Assembly (NCBI RefSeq): GCF_025685625.1
Contig: NZ_JAGSYI010000006.1
Location: 186,001 to 250,000, forward strand
DNA length: 64,000 nucleotides
DNA from: Acidicapsa acidisoli
Lineage (GTDB): Bacteria > Acidobacteriota > Terriglobia > Terriglobales > Acidobacteriaceae
Direction: 5' to 3'
Shown piece by piece: positions 12,757 through 31,145 of the stretch. Numbering within the stretch: the first letter of the stretch is position 1; every line of letters starts with the position of its first letter. The notes beneath the pieces were generated by a model. It saw only the letters and a program-made list of their open reading frames with translations. It was not told the origin of the DNA and did no database searches. A program made the translations under genes and the position numbers.

Positions 12757-15747
12757 ATGAATAACGGCAACCACGGAAAAGACTCGAAGGCCATCGAGAT
12801 CTCGATTGACGGAAAGATAATCGCTGCATCGGAAGGGGAACTTCTCGTCGAAGCCGTTCTTCGTGAAAAAGAGATTCCTCATATCTGCTATCACTCGCCA
12901 CTGATGGGGCCGATCCAGACCTGCGATACATGCCTCGTCGAAGTGGGTGGAAAGCTTCAGCGGGCTTGTGGTACGAAGGTCAGCGCAGGCATGCAAGTGG
13001 TGACAGAATCCGAGCGCGCCAAGAATGCGCGTTCCGAAGCGTTCGACGTGATTCTTGGAAATCACATGCTGTACTGCACGGTATGCGACAACAACAATGA
13101 GAATTGCCGAGTTCACAATACGGCGCTTGCGTTGAATGTGCAGCATCAGCACCACGAGTTCAAGCCGAAGCCGTACGAAGTCGACATGTCCAATCCGTTT
13201 TACCGTTATGACCCTAGTCAGTGTATTCTCTGCGGCCAATGCGTTCAGGCATGCCAGACGGTGCAGGTTAACGAGACACTCTCGATCGGCTGGGAACTGG
13301 ATCATCCGCGTGTGCTATGGGATGGCGGCATGCAGATTGGCGGATCCAGTTGCGTTTCATGCGGCCACTGCATCACTGTTTGCCCATGCAATGCGTTAAT
13401 GGAGAAATCCATGCTGGGCGAGGCCGGGTTCATGAGCGGCATGCCGAAGACCGCACTGAACAAGATGATCGATGTAGTCAAGGCGATTGAGCCCGAAATG
13501 GGTTATGGCGCGATCATGCAGGTCTCACAGACCGAGTCGATGATGCGCGAGGAGCGCATCAAGAAGACCAAGACGGTATGCACCTATTGCGCTGTGGGCT
13601 GCAGCTATGATGTGTGGACCAAGGGACGCAATATCCTCAAAATTGTCCCGCAGCATGGAGAAGCGAACGAGATATCAACCTGCGTCAAAGGTAAGTTTGG
13701 CTGGGATTTTGTAAATAGCAAGGACCGGCTGCAATCGCCCCTGATCCGCGAAGGCAACGGCTTCCGCGAGGCGAGCTGGGAAGAAGCGCTGACGCTGGTG
13801 GTCTCGAAGTTCACCGAGATCAAGAACCAGTACGGCCCGGATGCACTGTCCGTGATCATCTCTTCGAAGTGCACCAATGAAGATGGCTACCTGATGCAGA
13901 AGTTCGCCCGTGCTGTGCTGGGGACAAACAATATCGACAACTGCTCGCGCTACTGCCAGGCCCCGGCGACGACCGGCCTGTTCCGCACGGTGGGCTATGG
14001 CGGCGACTCGGGATCGATCGAGAACATCGCGAAGTCAGGCCTGGTACTGATCATCGGCAGTAACACCGCCGAAGCTCACCCTGTACTTGCGACCCGCGTG
14101 AAGCGTGCACACAAGCTGTTTGGCCAGCGTCTGATCGTAGCCGATCCGCGTGAGCACGAGATGGCGCATCGCGCCGATATTCACTTCCGTCCGCGTCCGG
14201 GAACCGACCTGGTGTGGCTGTCGGCAATGAGCCGCTACATGATCGACAACGGCCACGCGAAGATGGACTTTGTGAATCAGTGGGTGAATGGCTTCGAGGA
14301 ATATCGGAAAAGCCTTGAGCCCTTCACGATGGAGTACGCGGCAAAGACCTGCGAGGTTCCGCTGGAGACTCTTGAACAGGTCGCGAGGGAACTCGTCGCT
14401 GCAAGAAGTATTGCGATCCTCTGGGCGATGGGCATCACGCAGCATATGCGTGCTTCCGATGGTTCGACGGCCATCTCGAATCTGCTTCTGATTACTGGCA
14501 ACTACATGCGTGACGAGGGCGGGGCTTATCCTTTGCGCGGCCATAACAACGTACAGGGAGCCGGAGACATAGGCGCAGCGCCGAACGTCTTCCCGGGCTA
14601 CCAGCCGGTGAACGATCCTGAGATCCGCGCAAAGTTCGAGAAGGTGTGGGGTGTGCCTCTCCCGTCGGAGCGCGGCATGGACAACCACCAGATGGTGGAC
14701 GGGATGGTCGAGGGCAAGATGCGGGCGATGTACCTGGCCGGCGAGGATATGATCCAGGCCGACTCGAACGCGAACCACGTCGCCAAGGCCTATGGGAATC
14801 TGGATTTCTTCGTCGTGCAGGACATCTTCTTCAGCGAGACCTGCCGCTACGCCGACGTGATTCTTCCCGCCGTCCCGGCCCTGGAAAAGGAGGGTACGTT
14901 CAGCAGCACGGAGCGACGGATCCAGCGGCTCTATCAGGCTCTGCCCGAGTTGGGAGACAGCCGCGCCGACTGGAAGATCACGCAGGACATTGCCAACCGG
15001 ATGGGCGCTAATTGGAACTATACGCACCCGTCGGAAATCATGGCAGAGATGGCCTCGCTGACGCCGCTCTATGCAGGAGTAACCTTTGAGCGGCTCGAAG
15101 AGTACAAGACCCTGCAGTGGCCAGTGGCGGAGGACGGGACCGATCAGCCGGTGCTATACCTCAACGGCTTTCCCTTCCCGGACAACAAGGCGAAGTTCCA
15201 TCCGCTCGAGTTCCGCGAACCGGATGAGGCATTGGACGAGGAGTTCGATCTCTTCCTCAACAACGGCCGCATGCTGGAGCATTTCCACGAAGGCAACATG
15301 ACAAAGCGGGTTTCCGGCATTCATGAAGAGACACCGGAGCGGTATCTGGAGATCTCGGAGGAGTTGGCGCGGGAGCGAGATATCGAATCCGGTCAGTGGG
15401 TGCGCGTCACCAGCCGTCACGGAACGCTGAAGATCAAGGTGTTGGTCGCAAAACGGGTGGTCGGCCAACAGGTGTACCTGGGGCTATACTCGCCGAACGA
15501 AGGGCCGATCAACATCCTGACAGGATCGCATGCGGATAACGCGACGAATACACCGGCGTACAAAGAGACCGCGGTCAGGATCGAAGTGCTTCCGGAGAAG
15601 GGCAGCAATCCGCTCAAACCGCTGAACCCACGTTTCTCGGGCAAGCCGACCCCGCAGAACGGGGTCGAGGTGGAGCGCAAGTGGGCGCGCAAGGACTACC
15701 GCATGCCGGGCACTCAAGCGCTTGTTCAGATTCAACCAAGCAGATAG
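12757..15747 (+). CDS. fdhA: Formate dehydrogenase alpha subunit, NuoG-like N-terminus, cysteine type
   Basis: 996 aa, cytoplasmic, no Tat signal. Domains in order: 2Fe-2S ferredoxin (Cys 44, 56, 59, 71); His-Cys cluster segment (HMLYCTVCDNNNENC, about 103-117); two 4Fe-4S motifs (CILCGQCVQAC about 156, CVSCGHCITVC about 199); the molybdopterin-oxidoreductase 4Fe-4S motif (Cys 275, 278, 282, 309); then the bis-MGD catalytic domains. In NCSRYCQAPA the Cys at about 400 takes the position of the Mo/W ligand, so this is a cysteine and not a selenocysteine enzyme. This architecture belongs to soluble formate dehydrogenases that oxidise formate to CO2 and pass electrons along the cluster chain; no flavin beta subunit is encoded next to it. 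DUF1641 follows by 20 nt and FdhD is encoded at 25916. A promoter-like element shared with the 25063 gene lies upstream. Confidence 0.95.
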   Translation: MNNGNHGKDSKAIEISIDGKIIAASEGELLVEAVLREKEIPHICYHSPLMGPIQTCDTCLVEVGGKLQRACGTKVSAGMQVVTESERAKNARSEAFDVILGNHMLYCTVCDNNNENCRVHNTALALNVQHQHHEFKPKPYEVDMSNPFYRYDPSQCILCGQCVQACQTVQVNETLSIGWELDHPRVLWDGGMQIGGSSCVSCGHCITVCPCNALMEKSMLGEAGFMSGMPKTALNKMIDVVKAIEPEMGYGAIMQVSQTESMMREERIKKTKTVCTYCAVGCSYDVWTKGRNILKIVPQHGEANEISTCVKGKFGWDFVNSKDRLQSPLIREGNGFREASWEEALTLVVSKFTEIKNQYGPDALSVIISSKCTNEDGYLMQKFARAVLGTNNIDNCSRYCQAPATTGLFRTVGYGGDSGSIENIAKSGLVLIIGSNTAEAHPVLATRVKRAHKLFGQRLIVADPREHEMAHRADIHFRPRPGTDLVWLSAMSRYMIDNGHAKMDFVNQWVNGFEEYRKSLEPFTMEYAAKTCEVPLETLEQVARELVAARSIAILWAMGITQHMRASDGSTAISNLLLITGNYMRDEGGAYPLRGHNNVQGAGDIGAAPNVFPGYQPVNDPEIRAKFEKVWGVPLPSERGMDNHQMVDGMVEGKMRAMYLAGEDMIQADSNANHVAKAYGNLDFFVVQDIFFSETCRYADVILPAVPALEKEGTFSSTERRIQRLYQALPELGDSRADWKITQDIANRMGANWNYTHPSEIMAEMASLTPLYAGVTFERLEEYKTLQWPVAEDGTDQPVLYLNGFPFPDNKAKFHPLEFREPDEALDEEFDLFLNNGRMLEHFHEGNMTKRVSGIHEETPERYLEISEELARERDIESGQWVRVTSRHGTLKIKVLVAKRVVGQQVYLGLYSPNEGPINILTGSHADNATNTPAYKETAVRIEVLPEKGSNPLKPLNPRFSGKPTPQNGVEVERKWARKDYRMPGTQALVQIQPSR

Positions 15748-15767
15748 TAAGAAAGGCAGGAAGAGCA

Positions 15768-16214
15768 ATGGCAATTGCGGTTGAGTTTCGGGAGTTCACG
15801 CCGAGGAATTCCCGGAACGATTTGATGCGGCGGCTGGAGCAGGCACCCGAGCAGCACGTGGAGGCTATCCTGTCCGCTTACGACTTGTTGCAGCGGATGC
15901 ATGAGAAAGGTTTGATCGACATTGCAAGCGGGCTCCTTAGCGCCGGCAATACAGTCATCGAGCGAGTAGCCGACGTAGCCAGCTCAAAGCAGGTCATTAC
16001 GGCGCTGCGGCTGGTGCTGATGGTCACTAATCTACTCGATAAGATCGATCCGGACCAGATAGCTGCAATTCTATCGGCCCCGGAACGCAAACCGCATTCG
16101 CTCCTGACGATCGGGAAGGAAGCGATGAGCGAGGATGCGCGCGTGGGTTTAGCCACCGCAGTGCGTGTACTCAAAGTTCTTGGATCGTCCCTTCGCGAGG
16201 AAAAGCTGGCTTAG
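15768..16214 (+). CDS. DUF1641 protein, formate dehydrogenase partner
   Basis: 148 aa. The central part (VEAILSAYDLLQRMHEKGLIDIASGLLSAGNTVIERVADVA... in outline) is the DUF1641 helical repeat pattern seen in the YjgD-type small proteins that accompany FdhA/YjgC-type formate dehydrogenases in many bacteria. The ATG at 15768 has GGCAGGAAG just upstream and lies 20 nt after the dehydrogenase stop, so both are surely one operon. The role is likely accessory or structural; the family's exact function is unsettled. The bd oxidase gene follows 65 nt later. Confidence 0.88.
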   Translation: MAIAVEFREFTPRNSRNDLMRRLEQAPEQHVEAILSAYDLLQRMHEKGLIDIASGLLSAGNTVIERVADVASSKQVITALRLVLMVTNLLDKIDPDQIAAILSAPERKPHSLLTIGKEAMSEDARVGLATAVRVLKVLGSSLREEKLA

Positions 16215-16279
16215 GGCCGGCAGAATCCAGGTCAGTCAGTCCCCCACTTATGCATTCCCTGAACGGGCTTGGGAGCTAC

Positions 16280-17635
16280 ATGGACATCTTAACGCTGCAC
16301 AGAATCCACTTTGCCTTTACGATCACGTATCACTATCTCTTTCCGCAACTGACGATGGGCCTGGCGCTGCTTATCGTCGTGCTGAAGACGCTTGCGTTGA
16401 AGACAGGAAAAGAACACTATGCAATATCGGCGCGCTTCTGGGCGAAGATATTTGCTATTAACTTCCTGCTTGGCGTTGTGACTGGAATTCCGATGGAATT
16501 TCAGTTCGGAACGAACTGGTCGGAGTTCTCGCGCAGGACCGGCGGCGTGATCGGGATGCCAATTGCGATGGAAGGCATTTTCTCGTTCTTTCTGGAGTCC
16601 GCATTTCTTGGGCTTTTTCTTTTTGGGGAAAAGCGATTGCCGCGCTGGGCGCATTGGTTGTCTGCGTTTCTGGTCTTTGTCGGTTCGTGGATATCGGGAT
16701 TCTTCATCATCATCGCCAACGCATGGATGCAACATCCAGTCGCTTATCAGTTGCTGCCGAACGGCGTGTATGAAGTTAGCAGCTTTTGGGGTCTTATGCT
16801 CAATCCGTGGGCATGGCTGGAGTACGCCCACAACATGTCCGGAGCGGTGATTACGGGCGCCTTCGTCATGTCCGCGGTGGGCGCGCTTTACCTGCTACAG
16901 CGCCGCGATGAAGAGTATGGACGCACCTTCCTGAAGCTGGGCGTCATCGTTGGTCTGATCTCCTGCGCCACCCAGATCTTCCCGACCGGCGACATGCACG
17001 GCAAGTATCTGGCCGAGCATCAACCTGCCGCAATCGCCGGCATGGAAGGCCTCTTCCACTCCGAGAAGGGAGCGGCCATGGTGGTGCTGGGACAGCCGGA
17101 CTTCGAACACGAGAAGATCGACAATCCCCTCGCGGTCAACAAGCTGCTCAGCTTCCTGATCTACGGAACCACATCGGCTGAAGTGCAGGGCCTTGACCAG
17201 TTTCCCCGCGACCAATGGCCGACCACACTGCCGCTGCTCTTCTACGCTTATCACATCATGGCAGGTCTCGGAACCTACTTCGTCGGCATCATGGGACTTG
17301 CCGGATTGCTGTTATGGCGCGGCAAGCTGTATAAGTCACGATGGATTTTGTGGCCGATTCTGCTTAGCTTTCCGTTGCCGTATATCGCGAACACGGCCGG
17401 TTGGATGTGCGCGGAGATCGGCCGTCAGCCCTGGCTTGTTTATGGACTGATTCGGACCTCGCAGGGTTACTCAACGCATATCGGCGTGGGCACGAGTCTT
17501 TTCACGCTACTGGGATTTCTTGGGATGTATTCGGTCCTTTCGATCTTGTGGATTGTCCTTGTCTATAACTTCATTCAATCCGGCCCGAAGGCGCCTCATG
17601 AAGCGGTTGCCGGCCAGAGCTTTACGGCGGCATAG
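16280..17635 (+). CDS. cydA: Cytochrome bd ubiquinol oxidase subunit I, short-Q-loop (CIO-like)
   Basis: 451 aa integral membrane protein. The N-terminal RIHFAFTITYHYLFPQ with the b595/d haem His, the FGTNWSEFSRRTG segment, and GRQPW (in CAEIGRQPWLVYG) are family hallmarks. It oxidises quinol and reduces O2 to water in the inner membrane with CydB. The length is much below E. coli CydA (522), meaning a short Q-loop, as in the cyanide-insensitive oxidase (CIO) branch; actual cyanide tolerance cannot be read from sequence. The ATG at 16280 has GGGAG upstream; an ATG at 16250 lacks a site. CydB starts 8 nt after the stop. It lies 65 nt after the formate dehydrogenase partner gene, suggesting joint expression. 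Confidence 0.95.
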   Translation: MDILTLHRIHFAFTITYHYLFPQLTMGLALLIVVLKTLALKTGKEHYAISARFWAKIFAINFLLGVVTGIPMEFQFGTNWSEFSRRTGGVIGMPIAMEGIFSFFLESAFLGLFLFGEKRLPRWAHWLSAFLVFVGSWISGFFIIIANAWMQHPVAYQLLPNGVYEVSSFWGLMLNPWAWLEYAHNMSGAVITGAFVMSAVGALYLLQRRDEEYGRTFLKLGVIVGLISCATQIFPTGDMHGKYLAEHQPAAIAGMEGLFHSEKGAAMVVLGQPDFEHEKIDNPLAVNKLLSFLIYGTTSAEVQGLDQFPRDQWPTTLPLLFYAYHIMAGLGTYFVGIMGLAGLLLWRGKLYKSRWILWPILLSFPLPYIANTAGWMCAEIGRQPWLVYGLIRTSQGYSTHIGVGTSLFTLLGFLGMYSVLSILWIVLVYNFIQSGPKAPHEAVAGQSFTAA

Positions 17636-17643
17636 GAGATACC

Positions 17644-18690
17644 ATGGGGACTTTGTGGTTTTGGATAGTGGCCGCGATGCTGGCCGCCTATGTGGTGCTG
17701 GACGGCTTCGACCTCGGAGTAGGCATCATCTATTTTTTCGTGGCGAAGAGCGAGACGGATCGTCAGCTTGCACTGCGGGCGATTGGTCCGGTATGGGATG
17801 GCAACGAGGTTTGGTTGCTTGCGGCGGGAGGCACCCTGTTCTTTGCCTTTCCGCTGCTCTATGCGTCTGCGTTCAGCGGCTTTTATCTGCCGTTGATGAT
17901 GGTGCTCTGGCTGCTAATCCTGCGAGGCGTCAGCATCGAGATGCGCAGTCATTCCCACGAGCCGTTGGTGCATACCTTCTGTGATGGCCTTTTCTCGTTA
18001 TCGAGCGCACTGCTTGCAATCTTCTTTGGAGCCGCATTGGCGAACGTCGTCCGGGGCGTCCCGATCGGCAAGGACGATTACTTCTTTCTTCCGTTATGGA
18101 CCAACTGGACTCCTGGACCTAACCCCGGCATACTCGACTGGTATACGGTGACAGGCGCTGTGCTGGCGCTGCTTGCGCTCGCGCTTCACGGATCGCTCTA
18201 CCTTGCACTTAAGACCAGCGGAGATCTCGAACAAAGAGCGCTTAACCGGGCGACGAGATTGTGGCCAGCTGTATTTATTGTTACGTTGCTCAGCCTTCCT
18301 GCCACGGCAATTGCTCGCCCGAACTCGCTCGAAAACTATCGCGCGCATCCAATCGCATTTCTCGCGCCTCTTCTGGTGATCGCGGGCCTCGTGGCCATAC
18401 GATATGCTCTGCGAAAAAAGGCGAGCTTGGCTGCCTTCCGGGGTTCGTGTGTTTATCTTGCCGCGATGCTTGCCGGAGCCGCGGCTGGACTATATCCCGT
18501 GCTGCTTCCCGCTGTTGGAAACCAGGGCCAGGACATAACGGTCGCGCGTGCGCTCGCCGGTCCGCATGTCTTGCGCGTCGGGATTGTCTGGTGGAGTTTG
18601 GGCATTCTTCTGGCGCTGCTGTATTTCGGAATTTTGTACTGGCTCTTTCGCGGCAAGGTGGAACAGCAAGCGGGCGGGTACGGGCACTGA
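17644..18690 (+). CDS. cydB: Cytochrome bd ubiquinol oxidase subunit II
   Basis: 348 aa, about eight to nine membrane helices. It starts MGTLWFWIVAAMLAAYVVLDGFDLGVG, the typical CydB N-terminus with the conserved Asp-Gly-Phe-Asp, followed by GPVWDGNEVWLLAAGGTLFFAFP. It forms the heterodimer with CydA. The start follows CydA by 8 nt with GGAGA before it. No cydX-like small gene was recognised after it: the stop is only 2 nt before the start of the TolC-family gene, so the bd oxidase and an efflux system share one transcript. Confidence 0.95.
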   Translation: MGTLWFWIVAAMLAAYVVLDGFDLGVGIIYFFVAKSETDRQLALRAIGPVWDGNEVWLLAAGGTLFFAFPLLYASAFSGFYLPLMMVLWLLILRGVSIEMRSHSHEPLVHTFCDGLFSLSSALLAIFFGAALANVVRGVPIGKDDYFFLPLWTNWTPGPNPGILDWYTVTGAVLALLALALHGSLYLALKTSGDLEQRALNRATRLWPAVFIVTLLSLPATAIARPNSLENYRAHPIAFLAPLLVIAGLVAIRYALRKKASLAAFRGSCVYLAAMLAGAAAGLYPVLLPAVGNQGQDITVARALAGPHVLRVGIVWWSLGILLALLYFGILYWLFRGKVEQQAGGYGH

Positions 18691-25915: not shown

Positions 25916-26857
25916 TTATACGGCTGTCTTTCCCTTGATATGCTCGGCCCCGTGATAGATGTTGAAATGGTCGTCACGCAGAAAGCCTACAAGGATAATG
26001 TCAAACTCTCTGGCAACCTGCACAGCGAGACTGGACGGAGCGCCAACGGATGCCACCATGAAAACGCCTCCCATCAGCGCTTTCTGCAACAGCTCAAAGC
26101 TGGCGCGGCCCGAAAGTAGCAGCAGCGCATGTCGCAGTGGCGTCCGATCCGCGAGAAACTCCGAACCGAGAAGTTTGTCTACGGCATTGTGACGCCCGAC
26201 ATCTTCCCGCATTGCCAGGAGCTTGCCGTCAGCATTGAAGAGACCTGCTCCGTGAAGTCCGCCAGTACGATCGAATACGCTTTGCGATTCACGCAGTCGC
26301 GATGGGAGCGTGTAAAGGATATTGGCATTGATCGCGAACGAGTTCCTGATGCGCGCCGGACAGACTGTCTGGAGAGCAAGGAGCGAGGCTTTGCCGCAGA
26401 TACCACAACTGGATGTCGTATAGAAATTTCGCTCGAGATTCGCGAGGCTTACTTCAACTTCCGGGCTCAGTTCGACCCGCACTTTGTTCAACCTAGGTTG
26501 ATAAGGCAAAGCGCTCTGCTGCCAGGCATCGGACTCTGGCGCTGACGCCATGCTTTCGGGCGCGTATGTGATGCGCTCAACGTCGTTTATGTCGCGGACA
26601 ACTCCTTCGGTCATCAGGAAGCCGGCGGCGAGTTCGAAGTCATCTCCAGGAGTGCGCATTGTCACCGAGATCGATTTCATCGCTCGGGCATTGGATGGTC
26701 CGTGGACAAGTTGGATTTCGAGAGGCTCTTCGACAGCGAGGAATTCCTCCGCTGGAAAGGAATTCAAGCCTTTCACCTTTTGGACGGAGACTTTGACGGA
26801 GGCGCGACTCTGCTCTCCTGTCGAGGATTGGCCGGAGATTGGCGTGATGGAATCCAT
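25916..26857 (-). CDS. fdhD: Formate dehydrogenase accessory sulfurtransferase FdhD
   Basis: 313 aa, cytoplasmic. The family's catalytic CGICGK loop is seen (Cys about 151 and 154). MTPGDDFELAAGFLMTEG-like and FDRTGGLHGAGLF, EDVGRHNAVDKLLG and LSGRASFELLQKA are further family signatures. FdhD passes sulfur from a desulfurase to the molybdenum cofactor that is inserted into formate dehydrogenase, and is needed for activity. Its presence 10 kb from the formate dehydrogenase supports one functional unit. It lies 105 nt after the nitrilase stop on the same strand; the two may be cotranscribed. Confidence 0.95.
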   Translation of the reverse strand: MDSITPISGQSSTGEQSRASVKVSVQKVKGLNSFPAEEFLAVEEPLEIQLVHGPSNARAMKSISVTMRTPGDDFELAAGFLMTEGVVRDINDVERITYAPESMASAPESDAWQQSALPYQPRLNKVRVELSPEVEVSLANLERNFYTTSSCGICGKASLLALQTVCPARIRNSFAINANILYTLPSRLRESQSVFDRTGGLHGAGLFNADGKLLAMREDVGRHNAVDKLLGSEFLADRTPLRHALLLLSGRASFELLQKALMGGVFMVASVGAPSSLAVQVAREFDIILVGFLRDDHFNIYHGAEHIKGKTAV

Positions 26858-28357: not shown

Positions 28358-28585
28358 ATGCGCACCGAATTGACATTTAAAGCCCTTGCCAGCATGCCGA
28401 ATCGCTACCAACTCGTTCAACTCGCGGCTAAGGCAACAAGAGCGCTGCATCGGCCGAATACGCGAGTTCAGGATACGATGAACGACGCGCTCGAACGTCT
28501 TAGCGCGGCCAATCACGTTCAATCTGAGATGGTCATGGAAGCTTCCCTGGAATCGGTATCGGCCGAGCAACTCCAAGCAGCTTGA
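28358..28585 (+). CDS. RNA polymerase omega subunit-like small protein
   Basis: 75 aa. MRTELTFKALASMPNRYQLV followed by QLAAKATRALHRPNTRVQDT resembles the N-terminal core of RpoZ (NRFDLVLLAxxRARxL in the classical form) and especially acidobacterial omega subunits as I recall them. Omega binds the beta-prime subunit and helps assemble RNA polymerase. The ATG has GAGGAGGAA 5 nt before it. The context is not the usual housekeeping one (gmk, coaBC, spoT): a sigma-like gene follows by 55 nt and FixJ-type regulators flank it, so this is probably a second, accessory omega. The main rpoZ is not in the window, so this cannot be checked here. Confidence 0.7.
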   Translation: MRTELTFKALASMPNRYQLVQLAAKATRALHRPNTRVQDTMNDALERLSAANHVQSEMVMEASLESVSAEQLQAA

Positions 28586-28640
28586 CGCGGCAGCGCGCCA
28601 CCCAACGTAAGTTCCTCACCGTAGTATTAGGAGTGACAAC

Positions 28641-29144
28641 ATGGCAACTATCGCAGATCCCACCGCTCTGCCCCCCACTTCTTCTCCACGAAGCATCCCG
28701 TGGTGTTATCTGCTGCTCGACAACCTGCATGAGTTCGCTACTCTGGCGTGGTATCTGGTCGCGGACGGCACCCTCGTCGAAGAGGTGTTTTCGCGTGTCA
28801 TGAAGCAGCTTGACACCGCTTCCTTCGACGATTCTGACGCTCTCACGCCGTACAATCTTGCCCGCGAAGCTATCATTACTCAGGCGGTCGATGTATTGGC
28901 CGGCAGGTGCAGAGAAGAAGAGATCAACTTTATACAAGCCGACTCTGCGTATGAACTGCCCAATCTACCTCGACTGGCGTTCCTGCTGAGATTCGTGATC
29001 CGTTCCTCGGAATCAGCGGTCGCACGGTATCTCGATGTCTCCCCGTCGCGGGTACGTGAGCTGGTGATGGATGAAATCGACTATCTTAGCGTGAGAGGCC
29101 CCTGGTCGGTGCTCACGAATGTCAGAGGCGCAGACGCAATCTAG
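28641..29144 (+). CDS. Degenerate sigma-factor (ECF-like) protein
   Basis: 167 aa. The N-terminal half (LHEFATLAWYLVADGTLVEEVFSRVMKQLD in outline, about 29-58) has the pattern of sigma-70 region 2, and the C-terminal half (LPRLAFLLRFVIRSSESAVARYLDVSPSRVREL in outline, about 112-145) that of region 4, a helix-turn-helix. The normal acidic motif after region 2 and the usual ED-rich segment are weak, so it may be a diverged ECF factor or a sigma-like regulator that no longer opens promoters. TAGGAG 8 nt before the ATG is a good ribosome-binding site. It follows the omega-like gene by 55 nt, probably as an operon. No anti-sigma factor gene is adjacent. Confidence 0.65.
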   Translation: MATIADPTALPPTSSPRSIPWCYLLLDNLHEFATLAWYLVADGTLVEEVFSRVMKQLDTASFDDSDALTPYNLAREAIITQAVDVLAGRCREEEINFIQADSAYELPNLPRLAFLLRFVIRSSESAVARYLDVSPSRVRELVMDEIDYLSVRGPWSVLTNVRGADAI

Positions 29145-29197: not shown

Positions 29198-29827
29198 TCA
29201 CTTCGTCTCGTGCGTCGCGGTTATGATTCGCTCGGCCATTCTAACCAGGTCCGCCAGAGAGCTGGCTCCCATCTTATGCATCGCATTTCCTCGATGGATT
29301 TTCACTGTTATCTCACTTATCCCGATCTCCGCGGCGACTTGTTTATTCAACATCCCTGAGATAACCATCTTCATAACTTCGCGCTCACGGGAAGTTAGCG
29401 CCTCATATCTCCTGCGGAGGCTCACCAACTCTGACTTTTCCTTGAACTGCGCCTGGGCCTTATCCATGGAGTTGCGCACGGCATTCAGGAGGTCCAAATG
29501 ATTGACGGGCTTGGTCAGGAATTCTACCGCTCCGGATTTGATGGCTTGCACCGACATCCTGATATCTCCGTGCCCAGTGATGAAGATCGTGGGAATCTGG
29601 ATATCTGCTTTAATAAGTTCCTGCTGCAGAGCCAGTCCACTCAGCCCTGGCAGTTGGACATCCAGGACCAGACAGCCAAGGTCATCGGGAGTCCACGAAG
29701 AAAGAAACTCGCCGGCTGAGTTGAAGAGCCTTACGCCATATCCGGCGGAGCGCAGGAGGCTGTCAAGAGCTTCACGCACAGACCCTTCGTCTTCGACAAC
29801 AAAGACCATCGGAACTTGTTCGGTCAT
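29198..29827 (-). CDS. FixJ-type response regulator
   Basis: 209 aa. Receiver domain (about 5-120) with acidic pocket VVEDEGS, phospho-acceptor Asp in CLVLDVQLPG, and Thr/Lys in IFITGHGD and FLTKPVN. It is joined to a LuxR-type helix-turn-helix (LTSREREVMKMVISGMLNKQVAAEIGISEITVKIHRG in outline). This is the FixJ/TtrR type of activator. The ATG at 29827 is used; an in-frame TTG at 29842 has no better site. It is divergent from the paralogue at 30001 across a region with a 14-bp perfect palindrome. No sensor kinase gene is near. Confidence 0.92.
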   Translation of the reverse strand: MTEQVPMVFVVEDEGSVREALDSLLRSAGYGVRLFNSAGEFLSSWTPDDLGCLVLDVQLPGLSGLALQQELIKADIQIPTIFITGHGDIRMSVQAIKSGAVEFLTKPVNHLDLLNAVRNSMDKAQAQFKEKSELVSLRRRYEALTSREREVMKMVISGMLNKQVAAEIGISEITVKIHRGNAMHKMGASSLADLVRMAERIITATHETK

Positions 29828-29911
29828 TCGTTTGGCATCCAAATACTAGTCATTGGGGGCGTGGATCTGTCACGGCATAGGCCAGGATCTCAAACGCGGG
29901 GCGCGTCCTCC

Positions 29912-30000: not shown

Positions 30001-30678
30001 ATGCAGGATGCTTCCAAATTCCGTCGCACTGGCGGGTCAGCCGTCGAGTCGGGCTCTTCCCCTGAAACGGACCCCGACCGGCCTGTCGTCTTTGTGCTGG
30101 ATGACGATCCCGATGTACGGGAAGCGCTGTCGAGCCTTTTATCTTCCGCGGGTCTGCGGGTTCTCACGTTTGGATCGGCGGCGGAGTTTCTCAAGGCCAA
30201 GGCTCCGCGCTGCCCGGCTTGTCTGGTGCTGGATTTGCAGTTGCCAGATATCAATGGTCTGGATTTACAGCAGAAGCTCGCGGAAGTGAACGGACCTCCG
30301 GTCGTCTTTATCTCCGGTCATGGCGACATTCCTTCGTCGGTTCGAGCGATGAAGGCCGGAGCGATCGAATTTCTGCCGAAACCATTCAGCGATGAGGAAT
30401 TGCTTTCGGCCATCTCCAACGCTATCGCCAAGGATCGGGAGACAACGCAGCAAAGATCAGAATTGGCAAGAATCCAAAAGTCTTACGCGCTGCTCTCTGC
30501 CAGGGAACGAGAGGTTTTGCCGCTCATCGCGGCGGGGCTCAAGAATAAGGACAGTGCGGCAATGTTGGGAATTGCCGAGATCACGCTACAGGTTCACCGC
30601 GCGCAGATTATGAGAAAGATGGCCGCGCAATCGGTAACTGACCTCGTGAGAATGGCCAGCAAACTCGGAATCGTCTAG
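30001..30678 (+). CDS. FixJ-type response regulator
   Basis: 225 aa. A short Ser/Arg-rich lead, then a receiver (FVLDDDPDVREALSSLLSSAG, phospho-acceptor Asp in CLVLDLQLPD, Lys in FLPKPFS) and a LuxR-type helix-turn-helix (LSAREREVLPLIAAGLKNKDSAAMLG, then VHRAQIMRKMAAQS). It is a paralogue of the divergent 29198 gene; both end in the same VTDLVRMA/LADLVRMA type helix. GAGG lies 10 nt before the ATG. It probably activates nearby promoters on phosphorylation; the partner kinase is not in the window's vicinity. The next gene starts about 80-105 nt after its stop. Confidence 0.93.
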   Translation: MQDASKFRRTGGSAVESGSSPETDPDRPVVFVLDDDPDVREALSSLLSSAGLRVLTFGSAAEFLKAKAPRCPACLVLDLQLPDINGLDLQQKLAEVNGPPVVFISGHGDIPSSVRAMKAGAIEFLPKPFSDEELLSAISNAIAKDRETTQQRSELARIQKSYALLSAREREVLPLIAAGLKNKDSAAMLGIAEITLQVHRAQIMRKMAAQSVTDLVRMASKLGIV

Positions 30679-30782: not shown

Positions 30783-31145
30783 GTGGTCGTGGACGACGAC
30801 CTGGAGATTCGCGAGTCTCTTAAGAGCCTTTTGACATCGGCCGATTTCGGCGTGGCAACGTTTTCGTCTGCCGAGAGCGCGCTAGAGTCCGGGATTCTCG
30901 CCGACGCCGGGTGTCTTGTCACAGATGTGCGCATGCCCGGGATGCACGGCACTGAATTGCAGTCACGGGTACGCCGCCAACATCCTGCCTTACCCGTGAT
31001 CATGATTACGGCTCATCGCAGCGAAGAAATGAGACTATCCGCCCTGTCGAATGGCACCGCTTTTCTCTTTTACAAACCCTTCGATCCAATAGTTCTCTTA
31101 CAGGCTATCCACTCGGTTATATCCCGTCTTGAAGGACATGCCTGA
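30783..31145 (+). CDS. Single-domain receiver protein (FixJ-type receiver without output domain)
   Basis: 120 aa from the GTG given. Receiver fold with acidic pocket VVDDDLEI, phospho-acceptor Asp in CLVTDVRMPGMHG, Thr in MITAH and Lys in FYKPFD; it stops directly after the last receiver helix, so there is no DNA-binding domain. The reading frame continues upstream through SRHIKPIVV, a typical receiver beginning, to a CTG at 30756 with GGGGG 6 nt before it. A rare CTG start is therefore likely and would give 129 aa. It may act as a phosphate sink or as a modulator of the two FixJ-type regulators beside it. Confidence 0.85.
   Translation: MVVDDDLEIRESLKSLLTSADFGVATFSSAESALESGILADAGCLVTDVRMPGMHGTELQSRVRRQHPALPVIMITAHRSEEMRLSALSNGTAFLFYKPFDPIVLLQAIHSVISRLEGHA

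Follow-up and report, generated by a model that had tools for sequence, protein, structure and literature searches.

The locus lies in the 7.11-Mb genome of Acidicapsa acidisoli (18 contigs), within the 64-kb stretch that was analysed as a whole and is called the window here (G000:C6:186001-250000). Two ORFs on the same strand, 55 nt apart, encode proteins of 75 and 167 amino acids, exactly as the initial annotation had described, and a ribosome-binding-site-like run precedes each ATG (GAGGAGG for the first, AGGAG for the second). The features are as follows.

28358-28585, + strand: omega-like protein, 75 amino acids, assigned to the paired branch of the omega-2 lineage (ORF, relatives, register with E. 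coli omega, tree, fold model)
28586-28640, + strand: spacer of 55 nt with the AGGAG ribosome-binding-site-like run (sequence)
28641-29144, + strand: sigma-like protein, 167 amino acids, ECF-derived, with a degenerate region 2 and less basic DNA-facing stretches (ORF, profile comparisons, model)
28746-28910, + strand: region-2-like half of the sigma-like protein, approximately residues 36-90; the D/E-x-x-Q position reads T-L-V-E
28956-29096, + strand: region-4-like helix-turn-helix half of the sigma-like protein, approximately residues 106-152
29198-29842, - strand: FixJ-type response regulator (Response_reg + GerE; Pfam), convergent with the pair; a candidate control gene by position only
30001-30678, + strand: second FixJ-type response regulator (Pfam)
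30783-31145, + strand: receiver-domain-only protein (Pfam)

The FixJ-type receiver genes had been reported as flanking the pair. Both are present but lie on one side of it; the other, upstream flank carries a carbon-nitrogen hydrolase gene and fdhD. No anti-sigma gene is evident among the neighbouring ORFs submitted to Pfam, in line with the initial annotation. Rfam searches around the window pair and of six loci gave only matches below threshold (E 0.68 and 0.064). Genes for a molybdopterin oxidoreductase (possibly of the formate dehydrogenase type), for cytochrome bd oxidase subunits I and II and for FdhD are found in the same window (12757-18690 and 25916-26857). The cytochrome bd oxidase genes are ∼ 10 kb from the pair, and none of our results points specifically to the low-oxygen state that had been proposed for it.

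A Pfam Rpb6 search of the genome gave one gene above the cut-off, the housekeeping rpoZ at G000:C3:225104-225250. The gene order there is gmk, rpoZ, coaBC (names by reading of the sequences), which we take to be the housekeeping context of rpoZ. The place between gmk and coaBC is occupied by this gene and not by the omega-like gene of the window, which is one of five omega-like copies in the genome. With a separate rpoZ present, the window gene is not the only one of its kind in the genome, and the view of it as an accessory omega apart from the housekeeping gene holds; it also belongs to a distinct lineage.

The standard omega models score the window omega-like protein below their thresholds (14.9 bits against PF01192, Rpb6, cut-off 26; 16.9 bits against NCBIfam TIGR00690, cut-off 23.6). 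Relatives were aligned in a set of 33 (A3), composed of 13 members encoded beside a sigma-like gene (L111, L115 and L116 left out) and 20 of the rho-linked lineage described below, in two of which (L033, L037) the contig ends before any rho. Rpb6 matches at E ≤ 0.1 were obtained for four of the 33, the best at 0.0023. Canonical omegas were represented by 20 of 31 sequences (A4). Profile-profile comparison with omega was weak (E 0.085 over 22 columns) and shuffle tests were mixed, 14/33 and 7/20 lying above the 99th percentile. Because the profile comparison was too weak alone and the shuffles disagreed, a register test was used for homology to omega. Residues 10-30 of E. coli omega align with residues 10-30 of the omega-like proteins without a gap and with identical numbering, at a mean score of 26.6 for the 33 rows; the next best offset scored -2.1. 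In a 9-row subset, where the score was 26.0, 0/20000 permutations scored as high. The window protein is identical to E. coli omega at 7 of these 21 residues, and the conserved N-R-[YF]-x-L core of the omega-like proteins falls in register, so that the RpoZ core pattern noted at the outset is clear. Common to RpoZ and the omega-like proteins are N15, R16, Y/F17, L19, an alanine at 23 or 24, K/R25 and R28. We therefore regard this stretch, residues 10-30, as homologous to omega and confine the claim to it.

Structural comparisons are consistent with this assignment. The AlphaFold2 model of the omega-like protein has a pLDDT of 77 (∼ 84-91 over residues 1-50), and the first 26 Foldseek matches to it are RNA polymerase chains of omega size. 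The E-values are weak, however: the best omega match has E 0.45 and none reaches E ≤ 0.001. Searches of the PDB with single omega-like proteins found no omega. The profile found one omega at E 0.15, behind Csm5, whose matches (E 0.023 and 0.041, the best of the search) we judge to be chance over a short stretch. The omega-like proteins thus resemble RpoZ in the register of residues 10-30 and in their modelled fold, but differ from it in scoring below both family cut-offs, in their place outside gmk-coaBC as additional copies in a genome that has rpoZ, in the long third helix of the model, and in their termini. All 33 begin with MR and 32 end with AA (29 with RAA), an ending found in only one of 109 neighbouring ORFs of at least 200 amino acids.

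Omega-like genes are widespread within the family. A single-sequence search with the window protein matched 113 of 200 related genomes, all 113 among the 120 Acidobacteriaceae genomes in that set, and the profile matched 31 of 297 genomes sampled across the phylum, again all Acidobacteriaceae. Between one and six copies per genome were present in the 15 genomes searched. At 43 of 49 distinct loci (47 of 53 if the four repeated places L125, L126, L128 and L142 are counted) the omega-like gene is followed, after 79-233 nt, by a Rho gene in the same orientation (Rho by reading of the protein). Of the six loci lacking a downstream rho, two lie where the contig stops (L033, L037) and the other four are further copies (L003, L005, L006, L021). 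The rho-linked gene of A. acidisoli itself is at G000:C3:629614-629829 (L004, L118, L125), and its relatives are L011-L039 and L126-L144. These data support a second omega lineage, omega-2, distinct from rpoZ.

The rho-linked genes share an upstream element. GCGTCTA occurs in 28 of 44 distinct regions of 300 nt upstream of them (raw count 31/48, the 48 regions comprising 44 distinct sequences), and a relaxed form in 37; for the same 44 regions, shuffles gave 0.7 (relaxed 2.6) and the reverse strand 3 (relaxed 8). A GAACT- or GTGACC-like box often precedes it by ∼ 20 nt. By the ECF consensus GCGTCTA is presumably an ECF-type, -10-like promoter element, and we take it, together with the upstream box, as a putative ECF-type promoter of rho-linked omega-2. 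The element is missing before the omega-like copies that are paired with a sigma-like gene (0/15; relaxed form 1/15), and a search for a promoter common to all paired copies found none. A change of control thus appears to have accompanied pairing. Six of the 15 paired places (L108-L113, the window pair not among them) share, ∼ 55-60 nt ahead of the start codon of the omega-like gene, an element resembling GATGAGC..GGGGCGAT, which had no Rfam match at the loci submitted (L108, L110, L112, L113).

The sigma-like protein had been described as having halves that resemble sigma regions 2 and 4. The region-4-like half is firmly related to eight ECF rows (hhalign E 3e-9); the region-2-like half is related weakly (E 0.008). 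Over its full length the protein matches a mixed ECF profile with a probability of 98 and E 3e-13, although three of the 11 profile rows are themselves degenerate. Sigma70_r4_2 matches at E ≤ 0.1 were found for 15 of 17 sigma-like proteins, the best at 7.6e-6; the window protein itself is below the cut-off. The structural model is poor (pLDDT 55.8). The first eight Foldseek matches to it are either entries for sigma factors or chains of sigma size from RNA polymerase complexes, the best at E 0.02. From their sequences the sigma-like proteins are homologous to ECF sigmas, firmly in region 4 and weakly in region 2.

The signature residues are indeed weak, as first noted. D/E-x-x-Q in sigma region 2.2 is the core-binding signature. 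D/E-x-x-Q(-D/E) is present in 8/8 Acidobacteriaceae rows taken as complete ECFs, compared with 0/17 sigma-like proteins and 0/3 other degenerate rows. Among the 17, K, R, Q or T stands in place of the initial D/E, and the Q is replaced by E in 16 and by V in one. The 17 (A2) are drawn from 19 sigma-like copies, the broken L114 and L115 being left out. The comparison set (A5) has 11 rows, ten from among the 15 weak-hit loci L083-L097 together with L121 (L087, L092, L095, L096 and L097 left out); eight of the 11 had been judged complete ECFs by eye ahead of the signature count; L087, outside the alignment, carries the signature as well. The remaining three, L083, L084 and L094, are other degenerate sigma-like proteins of Acidobacteriaceae. 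Net charge, in stretches placed by eye on the alignments, is also lower. For the 2.3/2.4-like stretch it ranges from -3 to +2 in the 17 sigma-like proteins against 0 to +5 in the eight ECFs (seven at +3 to +5), and for the recognition-helix stretch from -3 to +3 against +4 to +6.

These observations bear on the view of the initial annotation, a divergent but working ECF sigma under a two-component system whose holoenzyme the omega-like protein helps to assemble. Like ECF (group 4) sigmas, the protein has a region-4 helix-turn-helix, which is conserved, and some region-2 similarity. ECF sigmas that lack an anti-sigma and are under two-component control are known (SigE with CseBC; PMC8999054), and omega is reported to influence sigma choice (PMC9638019). 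Unlike those sigmas, it lacks D/E-x-x-Q in every member and has less basic DNA-facing stretches, and no anti-sigma neighbour is evident; the rho-type GCGTCTA element is also missing before the paired copies. We consider a working ECF unlikely. The protein lacks the core-binding signature, and its DNA-facing stretches are without the basic character seen in its ECF relatives. A promoter-reading role is therefore not the interpretation that fits best, and on these features we take the protein to be a probable sigma mimic. The original observation is confirmed and its interpretation partly supported: an ECF-derived, degenerate partner stands, whereas a promoter-reading sigma is not favoured.

Strong sigma-like copies (E < 1e-45) number 19, in 13 of 398 Acidobacteriaceae genomes, and an omega-like gene lies directly upstream in 15 of the 19 places. 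The pair, suggested for a search across Acidobacteriota, therefore recurs, but strong relatives were found only in Acidobacteriaceae: in the phylum sample of 297 genomes only two had strong sigma-like matches, both of that family. In four genomes from outside that family the region-4 part of the sigma-like profile matched weakly (E ∼ 3e-5), a result that we put down to ordinary region-4 similarity. Among named genomes, a single-sequence search found no relative and the profile search found 10 loci; relatives in named records come from Edaphobacter, Granulicella, Silvibacterium, Acidobacteriaceae strains KBS 83 and KBS 89, and an Acidobacteria bacterium MAG. Edaphobacter RYN_3 has a further sigma-like gene with an upstream omega-like gene, and its C-terminus departs from that of the family. 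No match was found in a plasmid collection (single-protein search) or in viral contigs (profile search), so a plasmid or phage origin is unsupported in those collections. In a tree of 33 rows the 13 paired omega-like proteins tested all fall on one side of a branch with support 89/84, which is consistent with a single origin of the paired lineage.

The two partners are separable. An upstream omega-like gene is missing at four of the 19 places (L102, L104, L105, L106), as is any convincing remnant of one, and two sigma-like genes are broken beside an omega-like gene (L114, L115). Such separate losses, a possible remnant in genome G211 and the small number of genomes with strong copies would fit a fading accessory locus, in which an omega-2 duplicate and an ancient ECF copy drift to loss with little present function. 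The sigma-like gene argues otherwise. Its dN/dS was 0.06-0.38 in 10/10 comparisons (sequences overlap between comparisons), which indicates purifying selection; its C-terminus is DA in 15/17, matched by the conserved AA of the omega-like proteins; and five places in one genus share a site beside atp genes. A fading locus is therefore quite improbable. For the omega-like gene dN/dS was 0.14-1.08 over seven comparisons, with 1.08 and 0.64 in two of them.

The genes around the pair suggest two-component control. Genes of the response-regulator cluster lie within ∼ 5 kb of 10 of the 19 sigma-like places, but the same gene arrangement recurs at six of these, which therefore do not count as independent cases, and no such gene is found within ∼ 5 kb of the other nine. 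The nine include the five places beside atp genes (names by reading of the sequence) and four with neither the response-regulator cluster nor atp, one of which (L102) has kinase-like genes instead (by reading). The 7.11-Mb genome of A. acidisoli has 97 receiver-domain matches, yet each of its two pairs lies within 2 kb of one. A small histidine-kinase-like protein (cluster c2; identity by reading) recurs beside the module at L098, L099, L101-L105, L110 and L111.

We tentatively favour, at a probability of roughly 40%, a regulatory model where the pair is an RNA polymerase-directed module: an omega-2 paralogue together with a sigma mimic of ECF origin that has given up classical promoter reading, is docked through its own omega-like protein and is made on a two-component call. 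The omega-like protein would be a paralogue of omega from the omega-2 lineage, a lineage normally encoded next to rho. The sigma-like protein would act on RNA polymerase with the omega-like protein as its docking partner, and the neighbouring two-component genes would call for its synthesis. We infer both the binding of the pair to polymerase and its docking through omega. Since the usual core-binding signature is lost, a dedicated omega dock is attractive as a predicted route to the enzyme. GafA of Rhodobacter capsulatus offers a precedent by analogy for a sigma-resembling regulator that works through omega: its C-terminus has tentative similarity to sigma and it binds omega directly (PMC9638019). 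The likeness is of a regulator with tentative sigma similarity that acts through RNA polymerase omega, which for our pair is predicted. GafA differs in that its N-terminal part is DnaA-like, a central region binds omega and the omega that it uses is the ordinary one, whereas the pair has a separate omega paralogue. A more specific version is doubtful, namely that an omega-plus-sigma two-protein module, evolved from the rho-side second omega, swaps into polymerase under two-component control, with the omega paralogue docking the signature-less sigma mimic.

The main rival, to which we give a real but smaller chance, is a partner switch by sigma mimicry. Here the sigma-like protein would titrate the anti-sigma of an ECF sigma encoded elsewhere, as the sigma-like domain of PhyR does (PMC8999054), and the omega-like protein could even bind it as NepR binds EcfG. 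Pfam PhyR_sigma-like matches at E ≤ 0.1 were found for 16/17 sigma-like proteins (best 4.7e-5), one more than for Sigma70_r4_2, and PhyR structures appear further down the Foldseek list of the sigma-like model. As in PhyR/NepR-EcfG, a sigma-like protein need not read DNA, and the loss of core-binding and DNA-facing features, the two-component genes nearby and a small helical protein encoded alongside all agree with such a switch. However, the 167-residue protein has no Pfam match to a receiver domain (Response_reg), which PhyR has; the window protein scores only 16.6 bits against PhyR_sigma-like (cut-off 27); and no anti-sigma gene is evident beside it. Its partner is omega-like, with a model that resembles omega, and in most genomes sampled the omega-like genes adjoin rho with no sigma-like gene.

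In the open-licence literature, searched by title and the start of the abstract, we found no description of an omega-like/sigma-like pairing or of a rho-linked omega; the pair may be an undescribed way in which some soil acidobacteria adjust gene reading. In the usual view omega is a single small subunit that is itself little regulated. If our favoured reading is true, a family-wide second omega tied to rho, some branches of which are paired with degenerate sigma proteins, would make omega a variable part that tunes initiation or termination, and the pair would be a compact system in which the function of omega, and the question whether regulators can work through it, could be tested. Speculatively, the conserved AA end of the omega-like proteins may mark them for degradation. 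One study ranked E. coli RpoZ with the most destabilized of its stationary-phase candidates (PMC12974527), and a link between its instability and the AA end is a speculation by analogy.
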